Origin: Luteimonas sp. YGD11-2
GTDB taxonomy: Bacteria; Pseudomonadota; Gammaproteobacteria; Xanthomonadales; Xanthomonadaceae
Length of the DNA: 64,000 nucleotides
NCBI RefSeq assembly: GCF_004118975.1
Contig: NZ_CP035376.1
Coordinates: 2,604,001 to 2,668,000, forward strand
Reading direction: 5' to 3'
Numbering within the stretch: position 1 is the stretch's first letter; each line of letters starts with the position of its first letter. The position numbers and the translations under genes are program-made. A model generated the notes under the pieces. That model did not search any database. It was not told where the DNA came from and worked only from the letters and a program-made list of their open reading frames with translations. This document shows, piece after piece, positions 7,341 to 43,223 of this stretch.

Positions 7341-7445
7341 CGCGCCTTGGCGGGTGTGCTCCCCCGGCCGGAGTCCACGTCCAGCGACCACGGCCGGCGC
7401 CGGCCCTCCATTGGCCGGCTGTCCGCACACCCGCCGGTGCACGCG
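7341..7445 (-). repeat. Composite repeat, copy A: T2 palindrome
   Basis: First of five T2 palindromes in the window (others at 10023, 31136, 31430 and 42886). Outer arms GGCGGGTGTGC and GCACACCCGCC pair. Two inner hairpins are formed by GCCGGCC/GGCCGGC-type arms. The conserved hairpin-2 loop reads GTGGTCGCTGGACG on the minus strand. The copy lies in the 702 bp gene-free gap between dps and recQ (7240-7941). Flanks carry the shared boxes GGGCGGCGCG (outside) and a CCGGCGG-type box (inside). Confidence 0.8.
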
Positions 7446-7694
7446 ACGGGCCCGGGCATCCGCCGGCTCCGGCACGGGAATCAACAGTGGTGGTGCAGGC
7501 GTCGCCTGCCGCTGAGATGCCCGCCTCACGCGTTCGGCAGTTCCGCTTGGCGGTCGGCAGGTACGACACGGCCTCAACGCCGGCAGCGGCGGCAATGGCG
7601 CAATGGCGGTAGAGGCGGCAGGCCGAAAGTCGCCGCCACGAGGCCCTGGTTCTCGCCGTTGATCTCTTCCGGAAACGCGACGACGGTTCGGGGC

Positions 7695-7804
7695 CCGCCG
7701 CGGCCGCAGGGGGATGTCCAGAGCCGGCCATGGATGGCCGGCGGCCGGATGTGGGAGCCGGACGCGGAGATATCCAGCTGGGCATCCCCCTGGGGCCGCG
7801 GCGG
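7695..7804 (-). repeat. Composite repeat, copy A: T1 palindrome
   Basis: A T1 palindrome with about 22 bp of outer stem: CCGCCGCGGCCGCAGGGGG on the left pairs with CCCCCTGGGGCCGCGGCGG on the right, with one mismatch. The inside has GCCGGCCAT/ATGGCCGGC and a second weaker hairpin whose loop reads GTGGGAGCCGGACGCGGAG. It is separated from the T2 of this copy by about 250 bp, roughly twice the distance in the other copies. The extra bases (about 7470-7640) show nothing I recognise. Confidence 0.8.
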
Positions 7805-7941
7805 CTGGCGTACGACCAGCAGGTGCGGTCCGGCTTCGCCGTCGGGCGACGGATCCGCGCCCATCCACTTGTCGCCGCTTCCGGACCCGACACCGGACCT
7901 CCTGACCGCGGCTCACGGGATCCGCACGGTATCCTGTGCCG

Positions 7942-9771
7942 ATGTCGCGCACCGCCCACGCAGTACTGCAGAACGTCTTCGGCCATGCCGCCTTCCGCGG
8001 CGAACAGGCGTCCATCGTCGACCATGTAGCGTCGGGGAATGACGCCCTGGTGCTGATGCCCACCGGCGGCGGCAAGTCGTTGTGCTACCAGGTGCCGGCG
8101 CTGCTGCGCGACGGCTGCGCCATCGTCATTTCGCCGCTGATCGCGCTGATGCAGGACCAGGTCGAAGCGCTGCGCCAGCTCGGCGTGCGCGCGGCCTACC
8201 TCAATTCCACCCTCGATGCCGCCGAAGCGCAGGCGGTGGAACAGCAGCTTCGCGAAGGTGGCCTGGATCTCGTGTACGTCGCCCCCGAGCGGCTGCTGAC
8301 CGGGCGCTTCCTGTCACTGCTGGAGCGTGCACGGATCGCGCTGTTCGCGATCGACGAAGCGCATTGCGTGTCGCAGTGGGGCCACGATTTCCGCCCCGAA
8401 TACCGCGAGCTCACCATTCTCCACGAGCGCTGGCCGGAGGTGCCGCGCATCGCGCTGACCGCCACCGCGGATCCGCCCACCCAGCGCGAGATCGCCGAGC
8501 GCCTGCAGCTCGAGGACGCGCGCCGTTTCGTCAGCTCGTTCGACCGCCCCAACATCCGCTACCACGTCGTGCAGAAGGACGACGCCCGCCGCCAGCTGCT
8601 GGACTTCCTGCAGGCGCATCGCGGCAGCGCCGGCATCGTCTACTGCATGTCGCGGCGCAAGGTCGAGGAGACCGCGGAATGGCTGGTGGCGCAGGGTGTG
8701 GACGCCCTCCCCTACCACGCCGGCCTCGAGTCACGCCTGCGCGCCACCCACCAGCGCCGCTTCCTGCGCGAGGACGGCGTGGTGATGGTGGCCACGATCG
8801 CGTTCGGCATGGGCATCGACAAGCCGGACGTGCGCTTCGTCGCCCATACCGACCTGCCGAAATCGATCGAGGGCTACTACCAGGAAACCGGCCGCGCCGG
8901 CCGTGATGGCGAGGCCGCCGATGCCTGGATGTGCTACGGCCTGGGCGACCTGGTGCTGCTGCGGCAGATGATCGAGCAGTCGGAATCGGGCGAGGAACGC
9001 AAGCGCCTGGAGCATCGCAAGCTCGACCAGCTGGTGGGCTACGCCGAGACCATGGCCTGCCGTCGCCGGGTGCTGCTGGCAAGCTTCGGCGAGCGCTACA
9101 CCCCTGCGGGTGCGAGCGGCAGCGGCGAGCACGATTGCGGCAACTGCGACAACTGCCTGCAGCCACCGGAGAGCTGGGACGCCACGGTCGCGGCGCAGAA
9201 GGCGCTGAGCGCGGTGTTCCGCAGCGGCCAGCGTTTCGGCGCCGCGCATGTGATCGACATCCTGCGCGGTGCCGATACCGAGAAGGTGCGCCAGTTCGGC
9301 CATGACCGCCTGAGCACCTACGGCGTGGGCGCCGAACTCGACGCGCGCGCGTGGCGCGGGGTATTCCGCCAGCTGGTCGCGCACGGGCTGCTGGAGGTGG
9401 ATGCACAGGGCCATGGCGCGCTGCGCCTGACCGAGGCCAGCCGCGCCGTTCTGCGCGGCGAGCAGGGCGTGCGCCTGCGCAAGCTGCCGCCGGCGCGCAG
9501 CGGCGGCGGCGGTGCGCGCGCGACCAGTGCCGCCGCAGCGGTGCCGGCACCGGACCAGCCGCTGTTCGAGGCCCTGCGTGCGATGCGCGGCCGCCTGGCC
9601 CGCGAACAGAACGTGCCGGCCTACGTGATCTTCCACGACGCCACCCTGCGCGAGATCGCCGCACGGCGCCCGAAGAGCCTGCCCGCACTGGGCGGCATCG
9701 GCGGCATCGGCGCCGGCAAGCTCGAGCGCTACGGCGAAGCGGTGCTGGACGTGGTGTTCGAGCACGATTGA
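7942..9771 (+). CDS. recQ: ATP-dependent DNA helicase RecQ
   Basis: A 3'-5' DNA helicase of 609 residues acting in RecF-pathway recombination and fork repair. Visible: Walker [12 protein letters not shown] (about 40-50), the DEAH box in [19 protein letters not shown], helicase motif VI in [12 protein letters not shown], the zinc-binding cysteines (MACRRR, then DCGNCDNC), the winged-helix region, and a C-terminal HRDC domain beginning [18 protein letters not shown]. Length and order are complete. ATG 7942 is preferred over the GTG two codons upstream; neither has a convincing ribosome site. Composite repeats flank the gene on both sides. Confidence 0.95.
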
Positions 9772-9787
9772 GGTCATTCCGGGTGGC

Positions 9788-9896
9788 CCGCCGCGGCCAC
9801 AGGGGATGCCCAGCCGGATATCTCCGCGTCCTGCTACCACATCCGGCCGCCGGCCATCCATGGCCGACTCTGGACATCCCCCTGCGTCCGCGACGG
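9788..9896 (+). repeat. Composite repeat, copy B: T1 palindrome
   Basis: AGGGGATGCCC on the left pairs with GGACATCCCCCT on the right, within longer outer arms. Inner hairpins use GCCGGAT/ATCCGGC-like arms and GGCCAT/ATGGCC. The gap between recQ and lhr (9772-10215, 444 bp, convergent genes) holds only this copy. Confidence 0.82.
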
Positions 9897-10022
9897 GCTC
9901 CGACCTGTCGTCGTCCCGGGGGACGACCAGATCAACGACGGAGAACGCGCGCGCGGGGGAGAAGGCCCCGCGGTGGTCGCTGTTGATCTCCGCGCCGAAG
10001 CCGGCGGAAGCAGGAGCCGGTC

Positions 10023-10128
10023 GCGTGCCCAGGGGGGTGTGCGGACAGCCGGCCATGGATGGCCGGCGGCCGGCCGTGGTAGCTGGACGCGGACTCCGGC
10101 CGGGGGAGCACACCCCCCTGGGCGCGCG
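10023..10128 (+). repeat. Composite repeat, copy B: T2 palindrome
   Basis: Outer stem of about 20 bp with one mismatch: GCGTGCCCAGGGGGGTGTGC pairs with GCACACCCCCCTGGGCGCGC. Hairpin 1 is GCCGGCCAT-GG-ATGGCCGGC. Hairpin 2 is CGGCCGG/CCGGCCG around the loop CCGTGGTAGCTGGACGCGGA. The spacer before it carries AGATCAACGACGGAGAAC and GCGCCGAAGCCGGCGGA, both shared with other copies. Confidence 0.85.
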
Positions 10129-10215
10129 ACGGGCAGCGCGGATCGCGGCGGAGCGGCTTGGACGCCGGGAGCACTTCGATCGGTGCTTCCGCGGTGTAGG
10201 GAGGACAACCTCACT

Positions 10216-14580
<4,365 letters not shown>

Positions 14581-14990
14581 GGGTCTCGCCTGCACGGCGA
14601 CGGTGGCTTGCACATGCGGCGCGCCGGGATGCGCGACGTGGCGAACATAGCGGTCAGGATGCCCGATCTGCGCCCGGCGTGGCCGCGCTTCAACGCTGCC
14701 GGCCCGGGATGTTCAGGCCGCGGCCGGCGCACCGCTGCCCTCCGCGATCGCGGAGGGCGTCACCGCGATGGCAACGCCCCAGCACGCGCCGCATCAAGCG
14801 TCGCGGCTTCACCGATACGCAGGACATTAACGTCGGCGGGCACCGGTGCAGGAAACGCGGCAGCGCATGCCCACACCTACGCCGACCCCGCCGACTCGGA
14901 TCCCCGGATCGATCCCGGGAAATGGCCCCGACAGCGACGCAAGCCGCGCAGGGACTGCGCGGTGTACCGCTGGCGCACCGCCGCGCGAAC
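14581..14990. other. 410 bp gene-free region between lhr and the Abi gene
   Basis: No convincing reading frame. It contains a perfect 22 bp palindrome at 14737-14758 (half-site GCCCTCCGCGA) about 157 bp upstream of lhr, and a short GGATC/GATCC-rich stretch near 14918-14930. This is the left boundary of the defence block. I found no copy of the tRNA-Lys 3' end here by eye. Confidence 0.5.
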
Positions 14991-15863
14991 CTAGCGCCAC
15001 AGGTGCCGCCCCCTCCAGTCCGCTGGAATCTTCATCGCGTCCAGCGGCACCGCGGGATGCGCGTCCAGCAGTGCCCAGAGTCGTTCGCGCCATTGGCAGC
15101 CGGGTGACACCAACAGCAGCATGTGCCTGAGCACAACCAGCATCCCGTACAGGCGGCCGTTGTCCGGGACCTGGTGCGGCCAGGTCAGGCTACGCGAAGG
15201 GAACCGTGGCCGGATCGCGAATTGACGGTTCCAGAGCCGCTTGTGGTGGGCGCAGACATTGCGCAGGTAGGTCAGCGCATGCAGCCAGCTGCGCAGGAAC
15301 TGTTCATCCACCCCGTACTCTGCCGCGATCTTCTGTTTCAACGCCGGCGCCAGCGCAGCGTAGAGCTTGGATACTGCGCCGAAGGACAGCAGCTCGGTCG
15401 CCATCCAGACCGGCAAGTGGGGTTCGGAGGTGTACTTCTTCCGGAAGTGTCCCGCGAACGTCTCTTTCGCTCGCCTCTCCTCCCCGACCAGCTCGTCCAT
15501 GAATCGGCCATGCTCGAAGCCGGGGGCGAAGTTGGCAGGGTCGGTGTGACCGAACGACCCGTAGGCGTGCGCGATCTCGTAGGTGATGGCCGTGCGGATT
15601 GCGACTTCGATGCGCTCGATGGCATCGAGCACCAGCAGCCGCAGCTTGCGGTCGAAGATGTACAGACCGGCCACATCGTTGAAGTCGGTACCGGCGCGGA
15701 AATCCTCGCCATCTTTGAACGGAAGGAAATAGGCGCTGAGGCGGTAATAGCTGACCTTCTGGAGCCATCGCATGGCCCGGTCGGGGTCAGGGATGGCCAG
15801 GCCGCGCTGCCGCAGCAAGTCCATTTGCTCGTCGAAGGTCAGGGCCGGCTTGGTGTAGTGCAT
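14991..15863 (-). CDS. Abi family (AbiD/AbiF-like, HEPN) abortive-infection protein
   Basis: A 290-residue protein with the pattern of Abi_2 family phage-exclusion proteins: the N-terminal QMDLLRQRGLAI...YYRLSAYFLPF, the central FDRKLRLLVLDAIERIEVAIRT, and RNVCAHHKRLWN at 201-212. The last contains an R-x4-H motif (R201, H206), the catalytic signature of HEPN RNases. By family it would cleave RNA, perhaps tRNA, after phage infection, killing or arresting the cell; that role is inferred. It is the last gene of the minus-strand defence block, 154 bp after the restriction gene, with a terminator-like hairpin in the gap. ATG 15863 fits the family start. Confidence 0.85.
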   Translation of the reverse strand: MHYTKPALTFDEQMDLLRQRGLAIPDPDRAMRWLQKVSYYRLSAYFLPFKDGEDFRAGTDFNDVAGLYIFDRKLRLLVLDAIERIEVAIRTAITYEIAHAYGSFGHTDPANFAPGFEHGRFMDELVGEERRAKETFAGHFRKKYTSEPHLPVWMATELLSFGAVSKLYAALAPALKQKIAAEYGVDEQFLRSWLHALTYLRNVCAHHKRLWNRQFAIRPRFPSRSLTWPHQVPDNGRLYGMLVVLRHMLLLVSPGCQWRERLWALLDAHPAVPLDAMKIPADWRGRHLWR

Positions 15864-15875
15864 TGTTCAGGCAAT

Positions 15876-15929
15876 AAAAACCCGCCAATTATGCGCGTCA
15901 CCTGCCGAGGCAGGGCTAAGCGTGGCGGG
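15876..15929 (-). terminator. Hairpin plus T-run between res and the Abi gene
   Basis: On the minus strand CCCGCCA (15923-15929) can pair with TGGCGGG (15881-15887), followed at once by TTTTTATT. The loop contains a perfect inner stem, CCTGCC/GGCAGG at 15901-15914. It sits after res and 13 bases before the Abi start codon, so it could end the R-M transcript or attenuate entry into the Abi gene. A possible -10 CATAAT lies inside it. Confidence 0.5.
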
Positions 15930-16017
15930 TGTGTTGCCGCAAAGATTACGGAATTCCGTTGTCAGCGGCAAGCTTCGGGCAGTCAGGCATTCAGTCCATG
16001 CGAACAGCGCGGTAGCC

Positions 16018-21320: not shown

Positions 21321-21336
21321 GTTGGCCTCCAAGTGC

Positions 21337-21355: not shown

Positions 21356-21454
21356 ATGAAGGCAAGACGCGTGGACATCACAGTGGACCGTGGCGTTCAA
21401 CACCCGGAAAGCGTACGCCCGGCCAGCGGCTCCCGAGCAGGCGACTGGCGCGAG

Positions 21455-23901: not shown

Positions 23902-23902
23902 G

Positions 23903-30128: not shown

Positions 30129-30846
30129 CTGGCTGACGCTGGGCGCGGCACTGCTTGCCGGGCTGATGGGCGGGGTGCACTGCGCGGCGATGTGTGGCGG
30201 CATCGCCACCGGCTTCTCGGCGATGTCGCCCGGCGGCGGCTGGCGCATGGCGCTGGAACCCAACCTCGGCCGCGTCGGCGGCTACGTCATCGCCGGTGCG
30301 ATCGCCGGTGGCCTCGGCCACGGCATCCTGTCGCTGGCGCGGGTGGACTGGCTGGCCTGGGGTCTGCGTGCGGCGGTGGGCCTGGTGCTGGTGGTGGTGG
30401 CGCTGCGTCTGCTCGACCGCGGCGGCCGCCTGCGGTTGATGTCGCGTCCCGCCAGTGGCCTGTGGACGCGGCTGCGGCCCCTGCAGCAACGCCTGCTGCC
30501 GGCCAACACCACGCCGCGACGCATCGGGCTGGGCGTGCTGTGGGGCTGGCTGCCCTGCGGGCTCAGCACCACCCTCCTCGCCGCCGCCTGGCTGCAGGCC
30601 GATGCGCGCAACGGCGCGTTGACGATGTTGGCCTTCGGACTCGGCACATTGCCGTTGATGGTGCCGCTGACCTGGTCCGGCGCGCGCGTGGGCCGCTGGC
30701 TGCAGCAGCCGCGCCTGCGCACCACCGCGGGCGTGCTGGTGCTGGCCGCCGGCCTGCTCACCATCGCCGCACCCTGGTTGATGCAGGTGCCGGCGCTGCA
30801 TGGCGTCCTGGTCGCGCTGGGCTGCGTGCCGCCCGGATATTCCTAG
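30118..30846 (+). CDS. Sulfite exporter TauE/SafE-like membrane protein
   Basis: 242 residues, six or more hydrophobic helices. The N-terminal motif GLMGGVHCAAMCGGI carries His and two Cys and resembles the metal-type (UreH/SafE-like) branch of this family, and WLPCGLSTTLLA adds a further Cys. In cbb3 loci this gene commonly follows ccoS, and a role in copper handling for oxidase assembly seems likelier than sulfite export; that is inference. ATG 30118 overlaps ccoS by 11 bases. Last gene of the cluster; repeat copy C follows. Confidence 0.82.
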   Translation: MPVDWLTLGAALLAGLMGGVHCAAMCGGIATGFSAMSPGGGWRMALEPNLGRVGGYVIAGAIAGGLGHGILSLARVDWLAWGLRAAVGLVLVVVALRLLDRGGRLRLMSRPASGLWTRLRPLQQRLLPANTTPRRIGLGVLWGWLPCGLSTTLLAAAWLQADARNGALTMLAFGLGTLPLMVPLTWSGARVGRWLQQPRLRTTAGVLVLAAGLLTIAAPWLMQVPALHGVLVALGCVPPGYS

Positions 30847-30892
30847 GGTCTCAGGCCCTTTCTCGGGCTTGAAAGGGAAGCTCCAGGCAGCC

Positions 30893-31002
30893 CACCGCGG
30901 CCACAGGGGGATGCCCAGCCGGATATCTCCGCGTCCTGCTCCCACATCCGGCCGCCGGCCATCCATGGCCGGCTCTGGACATCCCCCTGCGTCCGCGGCG
31001 GG
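30893..31002 (+). repeat. Composite repeat, copy C: T1 palindrome
   Basis: Outer arms CCACCGCGGCCACAGGGGG and CCCCCTGCGTCCGCGGCGGG pair with a few mismatches. GCCGGAT/ATCCGGC and GCCGGCCAT/ATGGCCGGC form the two inner hairpins. It begins about 45 bases after the SafE-like gene, in the 904 bp gene-free gap 30847-31750. Confidence 0.85.
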
Positions 31003-31135
31003 CTCCGAGCTGTCGTGGCGTCGGGACGAAGATCAAGGTCAATGGCGAAAGAACGAGAGTGGACGGCTGCATGCGGCTCCGACAGCAACGCTCCTGCTCT
31101 GTGCGTGCACCGAAGCCGGCGGACGTCTGAGCCAG

Positions 31136-31243
31136 TCGCGTGCACCGGGGGGTGTGCGGACAGCCGGCCATGGATGGCCGGCGGCCGGCCGTGGTAGCTG
31201 GACGCGGACTCCGGCTGGGGAGCACACCCCCCGGGGCGTGCGA
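31136..31243 (+). repeat. Composite repeat, copy C: first T2 palindrome
   Basis: GCGTGCACCGGGGGGTGTGC pairs with GCACACCCCCCGGGGCGTGC. Hairpin 2 loop: CGTGGTAGCTGGACGCGGAC. It is preceded by CACCGAAGCCGGCGGA and followed by GGGCGGCGCGAACCACCACG, shared with other copies. Confidence 0.85.
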
Positions 31244-31429
31244 CGGGCGGCGCGAACCACCACGAAGCAACTCGGACACGCACAGACGCCACGGCGGGCA
31301 CGGACCTGTCGTCGCGTCGGGGGCGAATCAAAGTCAACGACAAGAGAGAGCCCTTGAGCGGTCGCGGGCGACTCCAGCGACGGCCGCTCCTGCTCTCCGC
31401 GCCGAAGCCGGCGTACGCCGAAGCCCGTC

Positions 31430-31536
31430 GCGTGCACCGGGGGGTGTGCGGACAGCCGGCCATGGATGGCCGGCGGCCGGCCGTGGTAGCTGGACGCGGA
31501 CCCCGGCCGGGGGAGCACACCCCCCGGGGCGTGCGA
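31430..31536 (+). repeat. Composite repeat, copy C: second T2 palindrome
   Basis: Nearly identical to the T2 at 31136. It is preceded by the spacer boxes (TCGTCGCGTCGGGG, ATCAAAGTCAACGACAAGAG, GCGCCGAAGCCGGCG) that normally follow a T1, but no T1 is present: spacer plus T2 appear duplicated in tandem. The remaining bases to 31671 show no further structure. Confidence 0.85.
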
Positions 31537-31671
31537 CGGGAGCGCGAACCACAACGAAGCAATCTCGCGCATGGACACCCGATAGAACACCTTGGCCCGT
31601 CGTCTTCGCACATCCCTTTCTGAACCATCACCGACCTGGGCCCGTGCGCAGCGCTGGCAACCGGCGCACGC

Positions 31672-31713
31672 CTGACCTGGATCAATTCGCGCCTCCGGCC
31701 CCGCGCGCAGACT
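31672..31713 (+). promoter_or_regulatory. Fnr/Dnr-type site and -10 of the azurin promoter
   Basis: CTGACCTGGATCAA (31672-31685) and CAGACT (31708-31713) lie 32 bp apart, centre to centre, giving a start near 31720 and a leader of about 31 bases with GGAG before the azurin gene. Confidence 0.65.
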
Positions 31714-31750
31714 GTCCCTGTCGAACAACAACGCCCCACTGGAGTAGCTG

Positions 31751-32221: not shown

Positions 32222-32314
32222 TCAGCGCCTCCACCGATCGCCGGGCGCGCGCCCGGCCAGCGATGGCGGAACCGGCAGGCCCGGTTCCGCCCGTCGTCGT
32301 CTTCCTGACCGGAC

Positions 32315-32728: not shown

Positions 32729-32766
32729 TTCTGGTCAAGGCGCACCGCCACCCGCGGGCCTAGTCT
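32725..32766 (+). promoter_or_regulatory. Fnr-type site and -10 of the hemN promoter
   Basis: TTGATTCTGGTCAA (32725-32738) and TAGTCT (32761-32766), 32 bp apart. The predicted start (+1) is 32773, the A of the hemN ATG, so the mRNA would have no leader. The site overlaps the haemoglobin stop codon. Confidence 0.75.
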
Positions 32767-32772
32767 GGCCGC

Positions 32773-34179: not shown

Positions 34180-34198
34180 GCATGCGGGAGCGCAAGGC

Positions 34199-34951: not shown

Positions 34952-35069
34952 CCGGCGCTGCCGCCGCACATGCCGGAGCCCGCCACCGCGCGCCAACGCG
35001 CGTTCGGAACTGCGCTGCTCGACCAGGAAATCGCCGGCATCCCGACGCGCGACGGCCCCGCGACCCACC

Positions 35070-35111
35070 GTGACCTGGATCAAGGCGTCAACACGCACCA
35101 GCGACGATGCT
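35070..35111 (+). promoter_or_regulatory. Fnr/Dnr-type site and -10 of the nnrS promoter
   Basis: GTGACCTGGATCAA (35070-35083) and GATGCT (35106-35111), 32 bp apart. The predicted start falls on the A of the nnrS ATG (35118). The left half-site is degenerate and the -10 matches mainly at its key A and T. Confidence 0.55.
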
Positions 35112-35117
35112 GGACGT

Positions 35118-36347
35118 ATGGATCCCCGACCCGTTTCCGCACCGCGTCCGTCGCCGCGCCTGCTCGGCGCCGCGCCGCACCGGCTGATGTTCTTCATCGG
35201 CGCCGGCAACCTGCTGCTGGCGATGGCCTGGTGGGCCGCATGGCTGGCCGCGACGCGCTGGCCGGCGCTGTCGATGCCGCAGCCACAACCGTGGGCCGGA
35301 TGGCTGCATGCCTTCGTGATGCAGTACCAGGTGCTGCCGAGCTTCTTCTTCGGCTTCCTGCTCACCACGTTCCCCAAGTGGACCGGGCAGCCCGACTTCG
35401 AGCGCTGGCGCTATGTGCCGGTCGGGCTGGGCCTGATGGGCGGGCAGCTCGCCACCCTGCTCGGTGCGCTGGGCTGGGAGGTCGGCATCGTGGTCGGCCT
35501 GCTGATGACCACCGCCGGCTGGGTCGCCGGGCTGGCCACGCTTGCGCCGCTGCTGTGGCGCGAACAGGGCACCACCTGGCATGCGCGGTCTTGCTTTGCG
35601 GCCCTGCTGCTGGGTCTCGCCGGGCTGCTGGCGTGGGGCGCGTTCGTGCTGGGCGCCCCGCCGCTGTGGGCGTTCGCCAGCATCAAGGTCGGCACCTTCG
35701 GCCTGCTGCTGCCGGTCTATGTGAGCGTGGCGCACCGGATGTTTCCGTTCTTCGCCAGCCGCGTGGCGCCGGGCTACCAGCCCTGGCGGCCGCTGTGGCT
35801 GCTCGCGCTGTTCTGGGTGCTGACCCTCGCGCACCTGCTGCTGGAACTCGCCCACGCCTACGCCTGGCTGTGGCTGGTGGACGTCCCGCTGCTGCTGCTT
35901 GCCACGACGATGCTGTGGCGCTGGTGGCCGCACGGCACGGTGCCCGGCCTCCTGCGGGTGCTGTTCGTCGGTCTGGCGTGGCTGCCCATCACCTTCGCGC
36001 TGTATGCCGGGCAGAGCCTGGCCTATGCGCTGACAGGTGTCTTCTGGCTCGGGCGCGCGCCGGCGCATGCGTTGTTCATCGGCTTCTTCGGCAGCGTGCT
36101 GGTGGCGATGGTCACCCGGGTGACGCAAGGCCATTCCGGCCGACCACTGGCGATGTACGGCGTGGCCTGGTTCGCGTTCGTGGCGATCCAGCTGGTGGCG
36201 GTGATGCGGGTGGTGGCCGAACTCGCACCGGATACGCTGGCATGGCAGGTCGCCGCGGCGCTGGGCTGGCTGCTCGCCTTCGCGCCGTGGGTCGCACACA
36301 TCGGCCGCATCTACCTGAGCCCGCGCGTCGATGGCGGGCCGGGCTGA
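35118..36347 (+). CDS. nnrS: NnrS family membrane protein
   Basis: 409 residues with about twelve hydrophobic segments. Characteristic NnrS features: APHRLMFFIGAGNLLLAMAWW at the start, LTTFPKWTGQ, and HRMFPFFASRVAP in the middle. NnrS is a haem- and copper-containing protein of denitrifiers that protects against nitric oxide; the exact reaction is unclear. ATG 35118 agrees with the family N-terminus and coincides with the predicted transcription start. It is followed after 19 bases by a 24-codon frame and then a PLP enzyme. Confidence 0.92.
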   Translation: MDPRPVSAPRPSPRLLGAAPHRLMFFIGAGNLLLAMAWWAAWLAATRWPALSMPQPQPWAGWLHAFVMQYQVLPSFFFGFLLTTFPKWTGQPDFERWRYVPVGLGLMGGQLATLLGALGWEVGIVVGLLMTTAGWVAGLATLAPLLWREQGTTWHARSCFAALLLGLAGLLAWGAFVLGAPPLWAFASIKVGTFGLLLPVYVSVAHRMFPFFASRVAPGYQPWRPLWLLALFWVLTLAHLLLELAHAYAWLWLVDVPLLLLATTMLWRWWPHGTVPGLLRVLFVGLAWLPITFALYAGQSLAYALTGVFWLGRAPAHALFIGFFGSVLVAMVTRVTQGHSGRPLAMYGVAWFAFVAIQLVAVMRVVAELAPDTLAWQVAAALGWLLAFAPWVAHIGRIYLSPRVDGGPG

Positions 36348-36366
36348 CACCCGGCGGGAGGCCACG

Positions 36367-36441
36367 ATGATCGGATTCCATCCGTATCCGCATTCGCAGC
36401 ACGCCAATATCGCGCCTGGCCGGTTCGTCCATGTCCGCTGA
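36367..36441 (+). CDS. Short frame (24 residues) between nnrS and the PLP enzyme
   Basis: ATG 36367 has an ideal ribosome site (GGGAGG, five bases upstream), and the frame ends at TGA 36439-36441, overlapping the start of the next gene by 11 bases. The peptide starts MIGFHPYPHSQHAN and has four histidines. It could be a real small protein, a leader peptide that couples translation into the PLP enzyme, or chance. No family is recognised. Confidence 0.4.
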   Translation: MIGFHPYPHSQHANIAPGRFVHVR

Positions 36442-37567
36442 TCACACGCCACGCGGCATGACACACGTCGATGGGCCGCCGCACGGCGCCGACGCACGTG
36501 CCTGGATCTCGCATGCGCTGGCACTGTTGCGCCAGGAAGCCGCACGTTCGGCCGATACCCACCTGCTGAAACTCGCCTTCGCGGGTTTCCCGGGGATCGA
36601 CTTCTACTTCAAGGACGAGGCCGCGCATCCCACCGGCAGCCTCAAGCACCGCCTCGCGCGCTCGCTGTATCTCTATGCGCTGTGCAACGGCCGCCTGCAC
36701 GCCGGGCAGCCGGTGGTGGACGCATCGTCCGGCAGCACCGCGATCTCCGAGGCCTGGTTCGCGCGCCTGCTGGGCCTGAGCTTCACCGCGGTGATGCCGG
36801 CCGGCACCGCGCCGCGCAAGATCGCCGACGTCGAGGCGCTCGGTGCGCACTGCGACCTGGTGGCGGACCCGGCGATGGTGCACGAGCGTGCCGCCGGGCA
36901 TGCCGCTGCCGGCGCCTGCCACCTCGACCAGTTCGGGCTCGCCGAGCGCGCCACCGACTGGCGTGGCAACAACAACATCGCCGAGTCGATCCTCGGTCAG
37001 CTCGCGGGTGAACCGCATCCCGAGCCGGCATGGATCGTCTGTGGGGTCGGGACCGGCGGCACCTCCGCCACCATCGGCCGCTACCTGCGCTATCGCGGCC
37101 TGCGGACGCGGCTGTGCGCAGCCGAGCCCACCGGCAGCGCCTTCGTGCACGGCTGGCGCGGCCGCGACCGCACGGCGGTATGCAGCCGTCCGACGGTGAT
37201 CGAGGGCATCGGCCGCCCGCGGGTCGAGCCGGGGTTCCTGTTCGAGATCGTCGACGAGGTGGTCGAGGTGGCCGACGTCGAGTCGATCGCGGCGATGCAG
37301 GTGCTCGAGCGCCACCTCGGGCGTCGCTACGGTGGTTCCTCCGGCACCAACCTGGTGGCCTGCCTGCGGCTGGCTGTGCGGATGCGCGCACGCGGCGAGC
37401 GCGGCAGCATCGTCAGCCTGCTCTGCGACCCGGGCGAACGCTACGACGCCACCCTGTCCAACCCGGACTGGCTGCGCCGCAACGGCCTCGAACCCGCAGC
37501 GGCTGCCGACGCCCTGCGTGCAACCATCGCCAGCGGCCGGTGGCATCCCTCCGCGGACGAAGGCTGA
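36431..37567 (+). CDS. PLP-dependent cysteine synthase-family enzyme (Cds1-like)
   Basis: 378 residues of fold type II PLP enzyme. The PLP lysine is in HPTGSLKHRLARSLYLY, the substrate loop in VVDASSGSTAISEAWFARL, and the phosphate-binding glycines in GVGTGGTSATIG. The longer, modified active-site region resembles the branch described as cysteine desulfhydrase (Cds1-like), which releases sulfide from cysteine, rather than CysK/CysM. Activity is not certain from sequence. It is co-oriented and nearly contiguous with nnrS, so it may belong to the NO-responsive unit. Confidence 0.8.
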   Translation: MSADHTPRGMTHVDGPPHGADARAWISHALALLRQEAARSADTHLLKLAFAGFPGIDFYFKDEAAHPTGSLKHRLARSLYLYALCNGRLHAGQPVVDASSGSTAISEAWFARLLGLSFTAVMPAGTAPRKIADVEALGAHCDLVADPAMVHERAAGHAAAGACHLDQFGLAERATDWRGNNNIAESILGQLAGEPHPEPAWIVCGVGTGGTSATIGRYLRYRGLRTRLCAAEPTGSAFVHGWRGRDRTAVCSRPTVIEGIGRPRVEPGFLFEIVDEVVEVADVESIAAMQVLERHLGRRYGGSSGTNLVACLRLAVRMRARGERGSIVSLLCDPGERYDATLSNPDWLRRNGLEPAAAADALRATIASGRWHPSADEG

Positions 37568-37617
37568 CCGGCAACCGCGCAGCAGCGGCCACCACGTCGC
37601 CGGCACCGGGCACGCGC

Positions 37618-38172
37618 TCAGTGGTGCGGACGCGCCGGGGCGTCGGCGGGAAACGCCGGGTCATCGAACAGCCGCGGATAGTCGGCGATCGCATCGCGCA
37701 TCGCGGCCAGTGGCGTTTCCATGTCGGCCGGATCGTCGCGCAGCGCCTGGGCGCCGGCCATCATCCGCGCAAGCACGCCGTGCAGGGCGACATCGGGCTC
37801 GGGTGGCAGCGCGCAGTGTTCGAACATGTAGGCCACCGCCGCATCGACGCGGGATGCCAGCTGCAATGCGTGCGCGGGGTTGCCGGCCGCATGCGCGCCA
37901 TGGTGATCCCCGTCGTCCAGCGCGGCATGCAGCCGACGCATGCCGGTCATCAACGGCGCATCCGGCGCCCACTTCGCCGCGTCGGCATCGGGCAGGCCCG
38001 TCGGCGCGGCATCGGGGTGCGCATGTGCCTGGTGATCGGCGTGCGCCTGGTGGTGCGCATGCGCACCTGCCGCGGCTGCAGCCGCATGCCCTTCGTGCGC
38101 GTGCCCCGGCGGCGTGGCGTGGGCAAACCCGGCACACAGCGCCAGCGCCAGCATCGGCAAGGTGGTCTTCAT
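37618..38172 (-). CDS. Histidine-rich periplasmic protein, function unknown
   Basis: 184 residues. Signal peptide MKTTLPMLALALCAGFAHA, then a long His/Ala stretch (about 20 histidines between residues 20 and 60) that looks like a metal buffer, then a helical domain with LMTGMRRLHAALDDGDH and VAYMFEHC. It resembles a small protein sometimes found with denitrification genes (DnrO-type), but I cannot confirm that. It follows the DUF2249 gene by 10 bases on the same strand, so it should share that gene's Fnr/Dnr-type promoter. Confidence 0.7.
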   Translation of the reverse strand: MKTTLPMLALALCAGFAHATPPGHAHEGHAAAAAAGAHAHHQAHADHQAHAHPDAAPTGLPDADAAKWAPDAPLMTGMRRLHAALDDGDHHGAHAAGNPAHALQLASRVDAAVAYMFEHCALPPEPDVALHGVLARMMAGAQALRDDPADMETPLAAMRDAIADYPRLFDDPAFPADAPARPHH

Positions 38173-38182
38173 GGTGATGTCC

Positions 38183-38473
38183 TCAGCTGCAACCGCCGCA
38201 GCATTCGCTGCCTTCGCCATGCACCGGCGCGCGCAGCGCGGTGAAATCGATCACCGTCTCGCCCGGCTGGCGCTGCATGTAGTCCACCGACAGCTGGTCG
38301 CCGTAGCGCTCGCGCAGCTCGGCCAGCAGCGGCAGCGGATCGTGGTCGTTGATGAAACGCAGCCCTTCGCCCGGCTGCAGGGTGTCGAGCGCGCCGATCA
38401 GGGCAGCGTGGCGGAAGCGGCGGTCGACGCCGCGGGCATCGAACGGAAGAACCTGCAGGGACAGAGCGTTCAT
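38183..38473 (-). CDS. DUF2249 domain protein
   Basis: A 96-residue cytoplasmic protein with the SirA/TusA-like DUF2249 fold: LPFDARGVDRRFRHAALIGAL, then GEGLRFINDHDPLPLLAELRERY. The C-terminus CCGGC adds a cysteine cluster that could bind metal. DUF2249 proteins often accompany denitrification and NO-response genes, with no established biochemical role. The start at 38473 has AGGTG upstream. Confidence 0.85.
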   Translation of the reverse strand: MNALSLQVLPFDARGVDRRFRHAALIGALDTLQPGEGLRFINDHDPLPLLAELRERYGDQLSVDYMQRQPGETVIDFTALRAPVHGEGSECCGGCS

Positions 38474-38504
38474 GGTGCACCTGGGTGTGTGGGTGGACGA
38501 CTGC

Positions 38505-38546
38505 AGGATGCTCCCGGCACCCCGCGTCGTCCTTGACGTGGATCAG
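38505..38546 (-). promoter_or_regulatory. Fnr/Dnr-type site and -10 upstream of the DUF2249 gene
   Basis: On the minus strand CTGATCCACGTCAA (38546 to 38533) lies 32 bp, centre to centre, from CATCCT (38510 to 38505). Predicted start near 38498, leader about 25 bases. Confidence 0.6.
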
Positions 38547-38572
38547 CCCGATCGCGGTCACGACGGCCGGGT

Positions 38573-40732
38573 TCAGTAGCTGACGGCAAGCCGTGCCCAC
38601 AGCGTGCGTCCCGGTTCGTTGATCCGCACCGCTTCGGCCGGGTAGCCGAAGTCGGCGTTGCCGGCGAGGTTGAGGTGTTCGCTGTAGGCACGGTCGAACA
38701 GGTTGTCGACGCCCGCGCTGACCTGCACCCCGCTGGCGAAGCGGTAGCCGCCATTGAGCGCCAGGGTGGCGAAGCCGGCGCTGGGCCCGATGTCCTGGCC
38801 GACCACGTTGCCGTAGCCGCGCGCCACGCGATTCTGGCCGTCGACCACGCGCAGCAGCATCCCCGCCGACCAGCTGCCGTTGTTCCAGTCGGCGCTGAAG
38901 CGGCCTTCCAGCGGCGGCATCTGCGGCAGCGGCCGCCCGCTCTCGCGGTCGGTGCCGCGCGCATAGGCGAGACTGCCGCCGAGCTTCCAGTCGGCGCTGG
39001 CCCGGAACTCCACCCCTGCCTCGCCGCCGATCGTGCGCGCATCGATGTTCGTGACCGTCGACGTCGCGCCCATCATTCCGGTGACATAGCGGAACTGGAT
39101 GAAGTCCTCGACGCGGCCGGCATAGGCCGACACCCAGGCGTCGAAGCGCGTGCCGCGGTACTGCAGGCCGACGTCGAGCTGCGTGGTCCTCTCGATATCG
39201 AGGCCGGCGAATGCGTTGGCCGCGCCGGCCGGGCCATGGTCTGCGGAGAAGAGTTCCCAGTAGTCGGGCATGCGTTGGGTATGGCCGACGCCGGCGTACC
39301 AGCTGAGCTGCCTGCCAATGTCCTGCTCGAAGCGCACGAAGCCGGCCCTGAGCGTTTCCTCGCGTGACTGCCCGGCCGTGGGATTGGGCACCGCGTGCCC
39401 GCCATGTCCGCCATGCCCACCGGACACCGTGGCGCGCGCATCCTCGACGCCCGCGCGATCCAGGCGCGCACCGATGATCCAGCGGTTGTCATCGCCCTGG
39501 AACCACGTGCCCTCGGCGAACACGCCACGGTTGTCGAAGCGCGCATCCACCACCCACGGCAGCGCACGGTAGGCATCCACGCCCATCGCGCTGCGGCGGC
39601 GGTGGCGGCTGTCCTGCGCGTCGATACCGGCCACCAGCTCGAAGGCTGCGCCGCGCCAGGTCGCCGCCGCGCGTCCGCCGCTGGTGCTGCGCTCGACGTT
39701 GGACGCCATCGGCATCGGCATCGCGCCGTCGGGGTTGGGATCGCGCAGGCTGTAGTTGTCCATCACGTGGTCGGCCACGTTGTGGAAGAGGCTGGCCTCG
39801 AAGGCCTGCATCGCGCCTTCCATGTTGTCCTTCTCGAAGCGCAGGCTGTAGTTCGCGCGGTCGAACCGGCTGCCGTCCATGCCGCGCGTGGCATAGCGCG
39901 CCTCGCCATCGCCGATGCCGATGCCGAGTTCGAGCAGCGTGTCCTCGTCGGGCGTCCAGCCCAGGGCGAGGTCTGCGTTCCACTTCTTCCATGCCGAGCC
40001 GACGCGGTCGCCGTTGCCGTCGTCGTAGTCGCCCGATTCCGAGCGGTTGGCGCTGATGCGCGCATAGCCCAGCGGCGCGCCGTAGGTCGCATCCACGACC
40101 TGGTCGTTGCGCCCCCAGCTGCCGCCGAGCGCGCTGCCGGCGAGCTTCCAGGTGGGCTCCGGGTAGAACTCGCGGTCACGTTCGAAACGCACGGTGCCCG
40201 CCGACGCGCCCGGCCCCCACAGCACCGTCTGAGGCCCCTTGGTGACCACCAGCGCGTCGTAGGTCTCCGGCGCGATGTAGGACATCGCGTTGTCCATCCG
40301 CGACGGGCACGCGCCCGGCATCGCGCCATCGTTGGTCAGCAGGTTGAGCCGCGAACCGAACATGCCACGCAGCACCGGATCGCCGTTGCTGCCGCCGTTG
40401 CGGATGGCGCTGAAGCCGGGAATGGTCTTGAGGTAGTCGGCGCCATCGCTGGCGGGTACCGGCTGGCGCGGCAGTTTCGGGCTGGTTTCCCAGGTGAGCG
40501 CGGAGACCGGTGCCGCGGCGGTGACCACCACCGCGTCGAGATCGATCACGCGCAGCGCGTCGGGCACTGCAACGGGGGTAGCGTGGTGCGCGTGGCCGGC
40601 GTGACCCGACAGGTCGGCGGATGCAGCGCCGGTATCGGATGCGTTCGCGGACACCGCGGAGGCGGCCATCGCCGTCGCAATGGCGACGCACAGGCACGAC
40701 CGGCGGATCACCGGGCAATACGGGATCGACAT
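38573..40732 (-). CDS. oprC: TonB-dependent copper receptor (OprC/NosA family)
   Basis: A 719-residue outer-membrane receptor that imports copper using TonB energy. Signal peptide in the first 35 residues, then a His-containing segment (SGHAGHAHH), the plug domain (DYLKTIPGFSAIRNGGSNGDPVLRGMFGSRL, with MPGACPSRMDN), and a beta-barrel ending in the expected aromatic-terminated strand (LWARLAVSY). ATG 40732 is chosen because GGAG sits six bases upstream. It sits behind the DUF2946 gene and beside nirK, so it probably supplies copper for NirK, azurin and cbb3 oxidase. Confidence 0.93.
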   Translation of the reverse strand: MSIPYCPVIRRSCLCVAIATAMAASAVSANASDTGAASADLSGHAGHAHHATPVAVPDALRVIDLDAVVVTAAAPVSALTWETSPKLPRQPVPASDGADYLKTIPGFSAIRNGGSNGDPVLRGMFGSRLNLLTNDGAMPGACPSRMDNAMSYIAPETYDALVVTKGPQTVLWGPGASAGTVRFERDREFYPEPTWKLAGSALGGSWGRNDQVVDATYGAPLGYARISANRSESGDYDDGNGDRVGSAWKKWNADLALGWTPDEDTLLELGIGIGDGEARYATRGMDGSRFDRANYSLRFEKDNMEGAMQAFEASLFHNVADHVMDNYSLRDPNPDGAMPMPMASNVERSTSGGRAAATWRGAAFELVAGIDAQDSRHRRRSAMGVDAYRALPWVVDARFDNRGVFAEGTWFQGDDNRWIIGARLDRAGVEDARATVSGGHGGHGGHAVPNPTAGQSREETLRAGFVRFEQDIGRQLSWYAGVGHTQRMPDYWELFSADHGPAGAANAFAGLDIERTTQLDVGLQYRGTRFDAWVSAYAGRVEDFIQFRYVTGMMGATSTVTNIDARTIGGEAGVEFRASADWKLGGSLAYARGTDRESGRPLPQMPPLEGRFSADWNNGSWSAGMLLRVVDGQNRVARGYGNVVGQDIGPSAGFATLALNGGYRFASGVQVSAGVDNLFDRAYSEHLNLAGNADFGYPAEAVRINEPGRTLWARLAVSY

Positions 40733-40801
40733 GGGAAGCTCCATGGAAACTGGTGTGCTGGATGGCCGCGACGGATGCGCGGCGTGGCGGGAAACGCCCG
40801 C

Positions 40802-41176
40802 TCAGGGCGGTCCGCGCGAACCCAGTCCCCACGGATGGCGCCACCGCAGGTCCAACGCACGCGGCGCGGCGGCAGGGCGCCCCATCGCTGGCAATGGCAT
40901 CGCGTTGAAGGCGATGTCCATCGACGGCGCCAGCGACGACAGCAACGGGCAGTAATCGCAGTCCGGATCACCGAGCGCCGGTCGCGGGCTGTCGGCGTCG
41001 CCTGACTGCCAATGCGCACGGTCGGCGTCGCCATGGTGCGCATGCACTGCCTGTTGCTGTGCCATATGCGCCGTCGTTGCCTGTGCAACGCGGTCCAGCG
41101 TCGGCACCAGTACCAGCAGCAGCGAGGCCGCGAGACCGAGCCGACCCATCCAGTGCTGGAATGCCCCACGTTTCAT
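40802..41176 (-). CDS. DUF2946 family protein
   Basis: 124 residues: an N-terminal hydrophobic helix (LGLAASLLLVLVPTLDRVAQ), then a periplasmic part with AHHGDADRAH and the family pair in DPDCDYCPLLSSLAPS. DUF2946 proteins typically precede TonB copper receptors, as here, and are thought to be copper-related. The predicted promoter starts transcription one base before the ATG. It is followed after 69 bases by the receptor gene and probably co-transcribed with it. Confidence 0.85.
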   Translation of the reverse strand: MKRGAFQHWMGRLGLAASLLLVLVPTLDRVAQATTAHMAQQQAVHAHHGDADRAHWQSGDADSPRPALGDPDCDYCPLLSSLAPSMDIAFNAMPLPAMGRPAAAPRALDLRWRHPWGLGSRGPP

Positions 41177-41183
41177 GGGGCCG

Positions 41184-41225
41184 ATTGTGGATGCGGCGTT
41201 TCCTTACCCTGATGACACAGGTCAA
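41184..41225 (-). promoter_or_regulatory. Fnr/Dnr-type site and -10 of the DUF2946-oprC promoter
   Basis: On the minus strand TTGACCTGTGTCAT (41225 to 41212) and CACAAT (41189 to 41184) lie 32 bp apart. The start would be 41177, one base before the DUF2946 ATG (41176). Confidence 0.7.
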
Positions 41226-41258
41226 GCCGTGGCGATTTCCGTACGCAAAGGTATGTGC

Positions 41259-41300
41259 TTGATCCAGGTCATGGAGGCAGGCCGGCGCACTTCCTATCGT
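41259..41300 (+). promoter_or_regulatory. Fnr/Dnr-type site and -10 of the nirK promoter
   Basis: TTGATCCAGGTCAT (41259-41272) and TATCGT (41295-41300), 32 bp apart, give a start near 41307 and a leader of about 63 bases. Together with the site at 41212 it makes a two-site divergent control region between nirK and the copper receptor genes. Confidence 0.75.
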
Positions 41301-41369
41301 GGCTGCAACGGCGGAAAGCCCTTCCGCATGTGCTCCCCCGGCTTCGCATCAACCGCAAGGAAATACGCC

Positions 41370-42746
41370 ATGAGGAACCTGGTTCTGCTGTTCGCACTCG
41401 CCGCCGCCGGCGGCTTCGTCCCGATGGAGGTGGCCGCACAGCAGTCCGCCTCGGTCACCCCGATCGCCGATGTCACTTTCAGCATGCGCACCGAGATCGC
41501 CAACGGACAGATGGTCTTCATCGGCAATGCCGGGGCCATCAAGGACGTGGTCAACCCCGACCTGCGCGTTGCCGAAGGCGCGGTGGTCGCCATCACCATC
41601 ACCAACAACGACGGCGCCATGCACGACATCGCGGTGCCGGAGTTCGGCGCGCAGTCCGACCAGGTGGTCGGCGTGGGCGCGGCGACCACGATCGTGTTCC
41701 GCGCCACCAAATCGGGCACGTTCGAATACATCTGCACCATTCCGGGCCACAAGCTCGCCGGCATGACCGGCAACCTGATCGTCGGCGACGTCAAGGAAGA
41801 GGTGAGCACGGCGATCGACATCGCCAAGAACCCCGCCGAGGTCGGCACGCCCGTCGGCGACCGCGCTCCGCAGCACATCAACTACGACCTGCTGACCACG
41901 GAGGTCGAAGGCCGGCTGTCGGATGGCAGCACCTACCGTTACTGGACCTTCGACAACACGGTGCCGGGCCCGATGCTGCGCATCCGCCAGGGCGACACGG
42001 TGACCATCAACCTCAAGAACGCCGAAGACAGCATCAACATCCATTCGGTCGACTTCCACTCGGTCACCGGCCCCGGCGGCGGCGCCGCGGTGACGCAGGT
42101 GCGCCCCGGCGAGACCAAGAGCTTCACCTTCAAGGCGCTGCACCCGGGCCTGTACGTCTACCACTGCGCCACGCCGATGATCGCCCACCACATCTCCAAC
42201 GGCATGTACGGAATGATCCTGGTCGAACCCGAGGGCGGCCTGCCGGCGGTGGACAAGGAGTACTACGTCATGCAGGGCGAGCTCTACACGGCGCAGAAGC
42301 ACGGCTCACGCGGGCTGCAGGAGTTCTCGGTCGACAAGCTGCTCGACGAGAAGCCCGAGCACCTGATGTTCAACGGTTCGATGGACGCGCTCACCAAGAC
42401 CTTCGACATGACGGCCAACGTGGGTGAGGAAGTGCGCATCTTCTTCGGCGTCGGCGGCCCGAACATGACCTCGAGCTTCCACCTGATCGGCGAGGTGTTC
42501 GACCGGGTCTACAACCTGGCCTCGTTCACCAGCCCGCCGCTGACAGACGTGCAGACCACGCTGGTGCCGCCGGGTGGCGCGACGATGGTCGAGTTCAAGG
42601 TCGACTATCCCGGCAAGTACATCCTCGTCGACCACGCACTGTCGCGCGCCGAGAAGGGCCTGACCGGCATCCTCACCGTCCACGGCGATGCCGATGCGAC
42701 GATCTTCCACTCCAGCGAAGCGATCGACGCGGCCTCGGGGCACTGA
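41370..42746 (+). CDS. nirK: Copper nitrite reductase with extra N-terminal cupredoxin domain
   Basis: 458 residues; reduces nitrite to nitric oxide in the periplasm. Signal peptide to about residue 23 (VAAQ). An additional N-terminal cupredoxin (about 30-140) has its own type 1 ligands H85, C122, H127 and M132. The two-domain NirK core follows: type 1 ligands H225, C266, H274, M279; type 2 ligands H230, H265, H422; catalytic D228 and H371. The C-x7-H-x4-M spacing fits the AniA-like (class II) branch. The fused cupredoxin probably passes electrons to the core, as in Hyphomicrobium-type NirK. ATG 41370 has AAGGAAA upstream. Confidence 0.94.
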   Translation: MRNLVLLFALAAAGGFVPMEVAAQQSASVTPIADVTFSMRTEIANGQMVFIGNAGAIKDVVNPDLRVAEGAVVAITITNNDGAMHDIAVPEFGAQSDQVVGVGAATTIVFRATKSGTFEYICTIPGHKLAGMTGNLIVGDVKEEVSTAIDIAKNPAEVGTPVGDRAPQHINYDLLTTEVEGRLSDGSTYRYWTFDNTVPGPMLRIRQGDTVTINLKNAEDSINIHSVDFHSVTGPGGGAAVTQVRPGETKSFTFKALHPGLYVYHCATPMIAHHISNGMYGMILVEPEGGLPAVDKEYYVMQGELYTAQKHGSRGLQEFSVDKLLDEKPEHLMFNGSMDALTKTFDMTANVGEEVRIFFGVGGPNMTSSFHLIGEVFDRVYNLASFTSPPLTDVQTTLVPPGGATMVEFKVDYPGKYILVDHALSRAEKGLTGILTVHGDADATIFHSSEAIDAASGH

Positions 42747-42773
42747 GAATCCCCTGGCGGCATGTGGTACCGG

Positions 42774-42791
42774 AGGCGCCTGCGGGCGCCT
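42774..42791 (+). terminator. Hairpin after nirK
   Basis: AGGCGCC-TGCG-GGCGCCT, perfect 7 bp stem, 27 bases after the nirK stop, followed by TTCGGCATTT. Outer GGTACCG and CGGTAC can extend the structure. No strong T-run. Confidence 0.45.
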
Positions 42792-42885
42792 TCGGCATTT
42801 CGGTACTCCCGCACACTCCAGCGACTGGGCGTCAGCCGCATTCCTGTCTTGAAAGGGCTGCTCCGTTGTGATCCGCGCCGCCCGG

Positions 42886-42993
42886 CGCGCACGCCGGGGA
42901 GCGTGCTCCCCCGGCCGGAGTCCGCGTCCGGCTACCACGGCCGGCCGCCGGCCATCCATGGCCGGCTGTCCGCACACCCCCCGGCGTACGCGC
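42886..42993 (-). repeat. Composite repeat, copy D: T2 palindrome
   Basis: Outer arms CGCACGCCGGGGAGCGTGC and the GCACACCCCCCGGCGTACG side pair with mismatches. Hairpins as in the other T2 copies (GGCCGG/CCGGCC and GCCAT/ATGGC). CTTGAAAGGGCTGCTCC, just before it, recurs beside copy C as CTTGAAAGGGAAGCTCC. Confidence 0.82.
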
Positions 42994-43111
42994 CGGGCTC
43001 AGGCATCCGTCGGCTCCGCACCGGGATCAGAACCGGCTCCCGGCAGACTCGCGTGCGACCGACCAGCGCCATTCGTTGTTGACTTGCGACCCGACGGGAC
43101 GAGAGTGGGTG

Positions 43112-43223
43112 CCCACCGTGGACGCAGGGGGATGTCCAGAGCCGGCCATGGATGGCCGGCGGCCGGATGTGGGAGCAGGACGCGGAGATATCCGGCTGGG
43201 CATCCCCCTGTGGCCGCGGTGGG
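43112..43223 (-). repeat. Composite repeat, copy D: T1 palindrome
   Basis: CCCACCGTGGACGCAGGGGG pairs with CCCCCTGTGGCCGCGGTGGG. Inner hairpins GCCGGCCAT/ATGGCCGGC and GCCGGAT/ATCCGGC, second loop GTGGGAGCAGGACGCGGAG. The 532 bp gap 42747-43278 between nirK and queC holds the nirK hairpin and this copy. Confidence 0.85.

Follow-up and report, generated by a model that had tools for sequence, protein, structure and literature searches.

A 64,000-nucleotide stretch from Luteimonas sp. YGD11-2 (the window, G000:C1:2604001-2668000; the genome is a single contig of 3,216,429 bases) carries nine copies of two long palindromes, T1 and T2, each shaped like a Y (below, Ys). In each Y, one strand forms a long outer stem bearing two hairpins that carry GGA in their loops, and the fold of this GGA strand is under selection. 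The copies are scattered over intergenic DNA, for the most part as two different Ys set back to back. T1 and T2 are an amplified, derived relative of a known, functionally orphan RNA class, TwoAYGGAY (Rfam RF01731, clan CL00106). On balance we favour the reading that they are two lineage-specific, amplified forms of a TwoAYGGAY-type structured RNA, with a predicted transcript that binds CsrA/RsmA dimers.

Four T1 and five T2 copies in four gaps had been named in the original prediction, made from the window alone, and all were found at those gaps; the outer arms and the hairpin 2 arms differ between the two types as it had described. In every window copy the computed fold has an outer stem that encloses a pair of inner hairpins, with minimum free energies of -76 to -108 kcal/mol. 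The top repeat pairs in the window were 92-97% alike over 103-130 nt, far above chance, and the loop pattern of the original prediction, with up to 3 mismatches, gave 11 matches in the window, where shuffled sequence (n = 100) averaged 2.8 and never exceeded 7. An absence of further copies in the genome would have spoken against the family; BLAST over 35 fetched regions instead yielded at least 38 full T1, at least 35 T2 of more than 85 nt, besides 6 shorter fragments. The regions were picked from genome searches that scored 40 of 113 and 40 of 108 candidates, plus one more search, and these counts are lower bounds. Mean column identity was 98% for T1 (38 copies) and 95% for T2 (34 copies).

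The T1-spacer-T2 pair proposed earlier proved to be a real unit throughout the genome. A T2 partner was present for 34 of the 38 T1, across spacers of 99-496 nt that vary strongly in length and sequence, and the orientation was always back to back; the pairing rule demanded this order, and the full copy list held no neighbouring T1 and T2 in any other. With genes called by a home-made codon model, the flanking genes were tandem for 20 of the 38 units, convergent for 17 and divergent for none (1 unclassified), and no unit overlapped a called gene. Gaps longer than 100 nt in the window were 10 tandem, 3 convergent and 3 divergent.

GGA was the commonest unpaired triplet of the Ys, at 3.8 per T1, 3.2 per T2 and 2.9 per relative in other genomes, compared with 1.2, 0.6 and 0.8 after the unpaired letters were shuffled and 0.0, 0.9 and 0.0 when the opposite strand was folded. 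A palindrome scan based on arm complementarity, with no motif, was run over 87 fetched loci, most of which came from matches to R1 (a covariance model built from 34 T2 copies, and so including the T2 loops). Of the 118 palindromes it returned, 106 were Y-shaped. Among these, 91 had GGA in two apical loops, always on one strand, 11 had one GGA loop, 3 had none and 1 had one per strand. Hairpin 1 was AUGGAU in 32 of 38 T1 (AUGGAC in 3 more) and in 33 of 34 T2. For the loop, G·U, T-run and triplet counts in relatives, 80 elements were oriented by a CANGGAYG match, which left out 18 palindromes without an orientation, the majority lacking the Y shape; the hairpin 1 loop was ANGGAT in all 80, a figure partly built in by that filter. 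The original prediction had singled out the hairpin 2 loop as held by sequence, which stands; what it missed is that each loop keeps a GGA core of the kind found in CsrA sites, within a TwoAYGGAY architecture.

Known CsrA sites include ANGGAN hexaloops, CAGGA(U/A/C)G in CsrB and the consensus RUACARGGAUGU obtained by systematic evolution of ligands by exponential enrichment (SELEX) (PMC7652899; here and below, papers are cited for the excerpts available to us). The hairpin 1 loop conforms to the ANGGAN hexaloop, and that of hairpin 2 is often the CsrB repeat. GGA lies in apical loops, as expected of RNAs that bind CsrA/RsmA, for which the ideal site is ANGGAN closed by C-G. One csrA gene is present in this genome. 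The small RNAs (sRNAs) that sequester CsrA/RsmA (CsrB, CsrC, RsmX/Y/Z, and RsmU of Xanthomonas campestris) likewise carry several GGA motifs in hairpin loops. They are individual sRNAs, RsmU being processed from the 3' end of one mRNA (PMC7694677), whereas T1 and T2 are dispersed repeats and their binding is predicted. The Rfam families of these sRNAs gave no match to T1 or T2 in a scan of the window at gathering threshold and of positions 30780-31680 at E up to 10.

Selection on the fold was judged from mismatches in the stems. If the folds of both strands counted equally, C-to-T and G-to-A changes would leave equal numbers of G·U and A·C. Read on the GGA strand, the stem mismatches were G·U and A·C in 40:3 alignment cells for T1 and 29:5 for T2; when distinct variants of both were counted the ratio was 26:8 (p = 0.003). 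The outer stems of relatives gave 83:16, with a G·U majority in 47 elements and an A·C majority in 6. Comparison of orthologous copies with Lysobacteraceae bacterium NML91-0213 (19 T1 and 15 T2 pairs) gave 52 one-sided changes to G·U and 8 to A·C (binomial p ~5e-9, not corrected for shared ancestry), together with 16 compensatory pairs and 19 breaks. Control palindromes (n = 32, unoriented, counted on the + strand) had 18 G·U and 24 A·C, so the palindrome scan itself is unbiased; this control addresses scan bias and not selection on the control palindromes. The sense fold was the more stable one in 38 of 38 T1, 34 of 34 T2 and 70 of 80 relatives. Among relatives the stems change completely while pairing is kept, and so is GGA in the apical loops. 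The earlier suggestion that the fold matters is therefore borne out by compensatory changes and by G·U changes on one strand. It is the fold of one strand that is selected, because the GGA loops are confined to a single strand and stem mismatches are G·U and not A·C. Since an excess of G·U is predicted by RNA and by single-stranded DNA (ssDNA) alike, it fixes the strand and not the molecule.

At 20 orthologous places in NML91-0213 (L132 and L182 were left out, the copy being cut or displaced), identity was.92 for T1,.92 for T2,.65 for the spacer and.68 for the 150 nt outside; it reached.90 or more in 15 of 20 T1 and 14 of 17 T2. Alignable flanking DNA had an identity of.89, taken from BLAST pieces above 500 bits only. 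For T1, identity was.938 between orthologues,.960 within this genome,.897 within NML91-0213 and.925 for other cross pairs; the corresponding values for T2 were.920,.954,.880 and.912. This comparison does not separate homogenisation from purifying selection. L182 of NML91-0213 was considered as an empty site for L093 of this genome and rejected: it holds two T1 separated by roughly 1 kb at a place occupied by one unit in this genome, and is a rearrangement in which a T1 was displaced, possibly through recombination between Ys. Turnover was also seen at one site compared in 25 genomes of a distant genus. An intact Y was present in G081, decayed Ys in G524, G150 and G270, and inverted Ys or remnants in G519 and G131, whereas G249, G225, G522, G523 and G260 had a short or empty gap (2-46 nt); ten genomes had other sequence and four were not comparable, and relict and inverted Ys were judged by eye. 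A palindrome scan over 400 kb of G260 found no Y.

The covariance-model search suggested in the original prediction was carried out with R1, which scored the top 10-12 candidates in each genome; the counts it gives are therefore minimum values. Matches were obtained in 59 of the 297 genomes searched in the family (18 of 54 genera), in 16 of 299 genomes of the order sample (14 within the family, 2 from one genus of another family) and in 4 of 369 genomes of the class sample, namely this one, another from the family and two from a different order. An exact core pattern gave 65 stretches in the GTDB collection, with four named genomes hit: Luteimonas granuli Gr-4, NML91-0213, Luteimonas padinae and L. 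colneyensis; this search may omit records very near the window. The 41 listed R1 matches were full length and had little stem sequence in common except among the closest. Common to them was the hairpin 1 loop C(AUGGAU)G (also AAGGAU, AGGGAU and one AAGGCU), and hairpin 2 mostly carried GGA. In G536, four of nine R1 matches were folded, and all four were Ys with loops CATGGATG and CAGGAAG. The 75 clusters at loci of relatives were 32 tandem, 28 convergent and 12 divergent, with 2 overlapping an open reading frame and 1 of unknown context. Single Ys were common, and 11 of 14 palindrome pairs were back to back.

The link to TwoAYGGAY came only through these relatives. The class was described in 2010 as a candidate structured RNA from human gut, gamma-Proteobacteria and Clostridiales (PMC2864571), and was called a family of unknown function when CsrA binding was proposed for it in 2014 on motif grounds (PMC4333381). 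A Y from G890, a genome of another order, scored 54.1 bits with RF01731 against a threshold of 43. Over 30 genomes, 29 of them R1 carriers, RF01731 exceeded 43 bits in 6 (45-54 bits) and had matches at E<=1 in 23. Of its 83 places, 19 or more were R1 places as well (for example G890:C156:5297 and G102:C1:651613; compared by eye). In the class sample it matched 23 of 369 genomes, with at least 7 places in six of them. Across the two RF01731 searches, 10 of 11 neighbouring pairs less than 400 nt apart were back to back (-+), the other being tandem (counted by eye), and matches from other orders were likewise multicopy and paired in this way. Together with the pairs in relatives, this makes pairing look like a trait of the wider class; the passages on TwoAYGGAY in the cited literature mention neither dispersal nor pairing. 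T1 and T2 share with TwoAYGGAY the outer stem enclosing two hairpins, the AYGGAY-type loop of hairpin 1 and a multicopy, back-to-back arrangement, and the T2 model and RF01731 find loci in common among relatives. They differ in that hairpin 2, which has GGA, is mostly CAGGACG or CTGGACG, in that RF01731 does not match them, and in forming 34 near-identical T1-T2 pairs in one genome. They are not filed as members of RF01731, because the gathering threshold of 43 bits is not reached. A match to a described REP or MITE (miniature inverted-repeat transposable element) family had been named as what would undo the original prediction; this holds in part, since a described family does exist, though it is a structured RNA, not a REP or a MITE.

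Under the favoured reading the GGA strand would be transcribed, most simply by read-through from neighbouring genes. Read-through is proposed because no promoter was seen beside the Ys in a search by eye, spacers included. The two Ys of a unit point apart, so either direction of transcription would yield one sense Y. A single CsrA/RsmA homodimer could clamp the two loops of this Y, side by side on a rigid stem, and decay would be slowed by the stem's length, so that the copies might jointly act as a stable CsrA sink. The element would also spread and decay as a dispersed repeat. A bolder form, which we hold only tentatively, is that a selfish or domesticated dispersed repeat titrates CsrA through its copy number, as a sponge of 73 or more Ys with about 146 GGA loops, set in back-to-back pairs over the genome with either direction yielding a CsrA trap, and that TwoAYGGAY as a whole consists of interspersed, paired CsrA-titrating repeats across gamma-Proteobacteria and not of single sRNA genes.

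Several observations weigh against binding of CsrA by a transcript. RF01731 itself gave no match to T1 or T2, either in the window at gathering threshold or over 30780-31680 at E up to 10. The hairpin 2 loop of T2, CTGGACG, is not ANGGA. The unpaired GGA letters were slightly less well kept than the stems among T1 orthologues (9 of 228 changed, against 48 of 1589); only T2 orthologues show the expected contrast (1 of 135 against 66 of 1381). The SELEX ligands of CsrA favoured weak hairpins (PMC7652899), whereas the Y stems are very stable. The G·U excess was weaker, at 15:6, for palindromes away from the centre of the covariance-model match; it could in part reflect transcription-linked mutation, and it also fits folding of ssDNA. 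In tandem gene contexts, single Ys of relatives ran along the genes in 13 cases and opposite to them in 13, so there is no orientation signal of a 3' untranslated region (3'-UTR), and a terminator-like site stood ahead of the unit at 20 of 55 facing gene 3' ends, which also speaks against a 3'-UTR role. The intact, decayed, inverted and absent copies at the site compared in 25 genomes imply that many copies are dispensable.

The original prediction had noted a GTAG word, as in repetitive extragenic palindromic (REP) elements, and the arrangement recalls the REPs and bacterial interspersed mosaic elements (BIMEs) of Stenotrophomonas, Xanthomonas and E. coli: intergenic palindromes of two types in alternating orientation (PMC2817692). 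Self-complementary terminal inverted repeat (TIR) families of TIRYT genes have also been described in S. maltophilia (PMC3733652). It is nevertheless very improbable that the Ys belong to a REP/BIME or TIRtron family moved by a RAYT-type transposase. T1 and T2, of about 112-117 nt and with two inner hairpins, are three to five times longer than REPs of 20-40 bp (PMC3733652), and the resemblance did not hold at the palindrome foot, where no GTAG-type tag was found in the window sequences or in the T1 and T2 alignments. A search for the RAYT domain Y1_Tnp, as the original prediction had advised, gave 0 matches in this genome and was positive in 5 of 14 control genomes; the REP/BIME reading was rejected for want of both tag and cognate transposase. 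Of 24 other genomes with Ys, 16 had a Y1_Tnp match and 8 had none, and no Y lay near 24 of 28 Y1_Tnp places in relatives (24 loci, 21 distinct stretches), on which ground ends of the TIRtron/TIRYT or IS200/IS605 kind were also rejected. The Y1_Tnp loci held two weak R1 matches, L348:3524, a GTAGGAGC palindrome, and L352:1981, with E=0.036, as well as three other palindromes with an ANGGAY word, none of them an R1 match.

The main rival, which we consider unlikely but well above the REP reading, is an ssDNA mobile element in which the Y is the fold of one DNA strand, with loops recognised by a transposase or recombinase other than RAYT. The strand bias would then reflect ssDNA folding and the back-to-back pair would be the two ends of the element. 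G·T is better tolerated than A·C in DNA too. The high, dispersed copy number, the site with intact, decayed and inverted Ys and gaps of 2-46 nt, the lack of bias of single Ys to gene direction and the constant orientation of the pairs all suit such an element. Against it stand the Y1_Tnp results above, the frequency of single Ys in relatives, and pairs 99-496 nt apart with no called gene overlapping the unit and no autonomous version seen; the loops, moreover, fit CsrA sites in detail, down to the variable N. Less probable still is an element of transcript ends, whose long stem would serve as an RNase III site or hold up exonucleases or RNA polymerase, with GGA loops that have no role of their own or are bound by a different protein. 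The very stable stems and the absence of divergent contexts among the 37 classified units agree with it. A role of the stem alone leaves the GGA in both loops of one strand unexplained, and no T run follows the hairpin: T made up 0.07 of the 12 nt 3' of the Ys here, and 5 or more T in 12 were seen in 2 of 80 relatives. An intrinsic terminator was ruled out on this ground.

The features of the window are listed below. Gap 1 lies between a ferritin-like gene and a RecQ-type helicase, gap 2 between the same helicase and an Lhr-type helicase, gap 3 between a DsbD-like and an azurin-like gene, and gap 4 between a multicopper oxidase and queC. The remnant in gap 3, ahead of T2 copy d, is read as a mostly deleted second T1.

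Coordinates of T1, T2 and associated features in the window
Feature	Positions	Strand	Remark
T2 copy a	7334..7450	-	Y-shaped palindrome
Spacer, unit 1	7451..7692	.	242 nt
T1 copy a	7693..7804	+	Y-shaped palindrome
T1 copy b	9788..9898	-	Y-shaped palindrome
Spacer, unit 2	9899..10016	.	118 nt
T2 copy b	10017..10133	+	Y-shaped palindrome
T1 copy c	30892..31003	-	Y-shaped palindrome
Spacer, unit 3	31004..31131	.	128 nt
T2 copy c	31132..31247	+	Y-shaped palindrome
Remnant like T1 outer edge and spacer start (repeat family D12)	31289..31323	.	read as a mostly deleted T1
T2 copy d	31424..31540	+	Y-shaped palindrome
Hairpin 1 apical loop ATGGAT, T2 copy d (CsrA-like ANGGAN)	31462..31467	+	
Hairpin 2 apical loop CTGGACG, T2 copy d	31490..31496	+	
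T2 copy e	42881..42997	-	Y-shaped palindrome
Spacer, unit 4	42998..43110	.	113 nt
T1 copy d	43111..43222	+	Y-shaped palindrome
Hairpin 1 apical loop ATGGAT, T1 copy d	43148..43153	+	
Hairpin 2 apical loop CAGGACG, T1 copy d	43176..43182	+	CsrB-type repeat CAGGA(U/A/C)G (PMC7652899)

Outside the window, a third, single Y of another sequence type was found at G000:C1:3174991-3175109 (L401:2492-2610), with loops AGGGAT and ATGGAT. It was found by RF01731 only (25.4 bits) and was the single place matched by that model in this genome at E<=1, being neither T1 nor T2. Some spacers contain other repeats. That of the unit at 2416643-2417059 (L109) encloses a stretch like GTGGGAGCGCGCTCGCGCGCGA and its inverted counterpart, which together resemble a classical Xanthomonas REP doublet, and those of the units at 212356 (L094; at 496 nt the longest found) and 2412318 (L109) both contain a stretch of another repeat (CCCTCATCCGCCCCTTCGGG...). 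About ten units (for example 1350306, 2853912 and 2988942; L100, L116, L119) have a semi-regular GAGCCAGAGCCGGAGCACGGGC-like stretch ahead of T1, seen by eye, and are perhaps a subfamily with longer ends. In relatives, a shorter palindrome with one GGGCCTTCGGCCC hairpin stands beside several Ys (L271, L270 and L214, of G003) where the second Y would be, and is perhaps a reduced partner. At L200:863-945, a locus with two tandem Ys, Rfam sRNA-Xcc1 scored just below threshold (50.7 of 53 bits). Unit 2 had no match in plasmid and phage collections. Among the literature matches listed, none concerned such repeats in Luteimonas or Lysobacter by its title or the opening of its abstract.

Relatives of TwoAYGGAY thus appear here as dispersed, paired, high-copy repeats in part of one bacterial family. 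Their fold is under strand-specific selection, and most units are more alike between two species than the alignable flanking DNA. The orphan RNA gains a natural experiment in genomes with no match, few copies or at least 73, and intergenic repeats would be tied to a global post-transcriptional regulator. The only role for TwoAYGGAY that we found proposed, in the literature excerpts, is the motif-based CsrA binding of 2014 (PMC4333381). If the favoured reading is true, the repeats would supply CsrA antagonists in a family where homologues of CsrB and RsmXYZ have been reported missing for Xanthomonas (PMC7694677).

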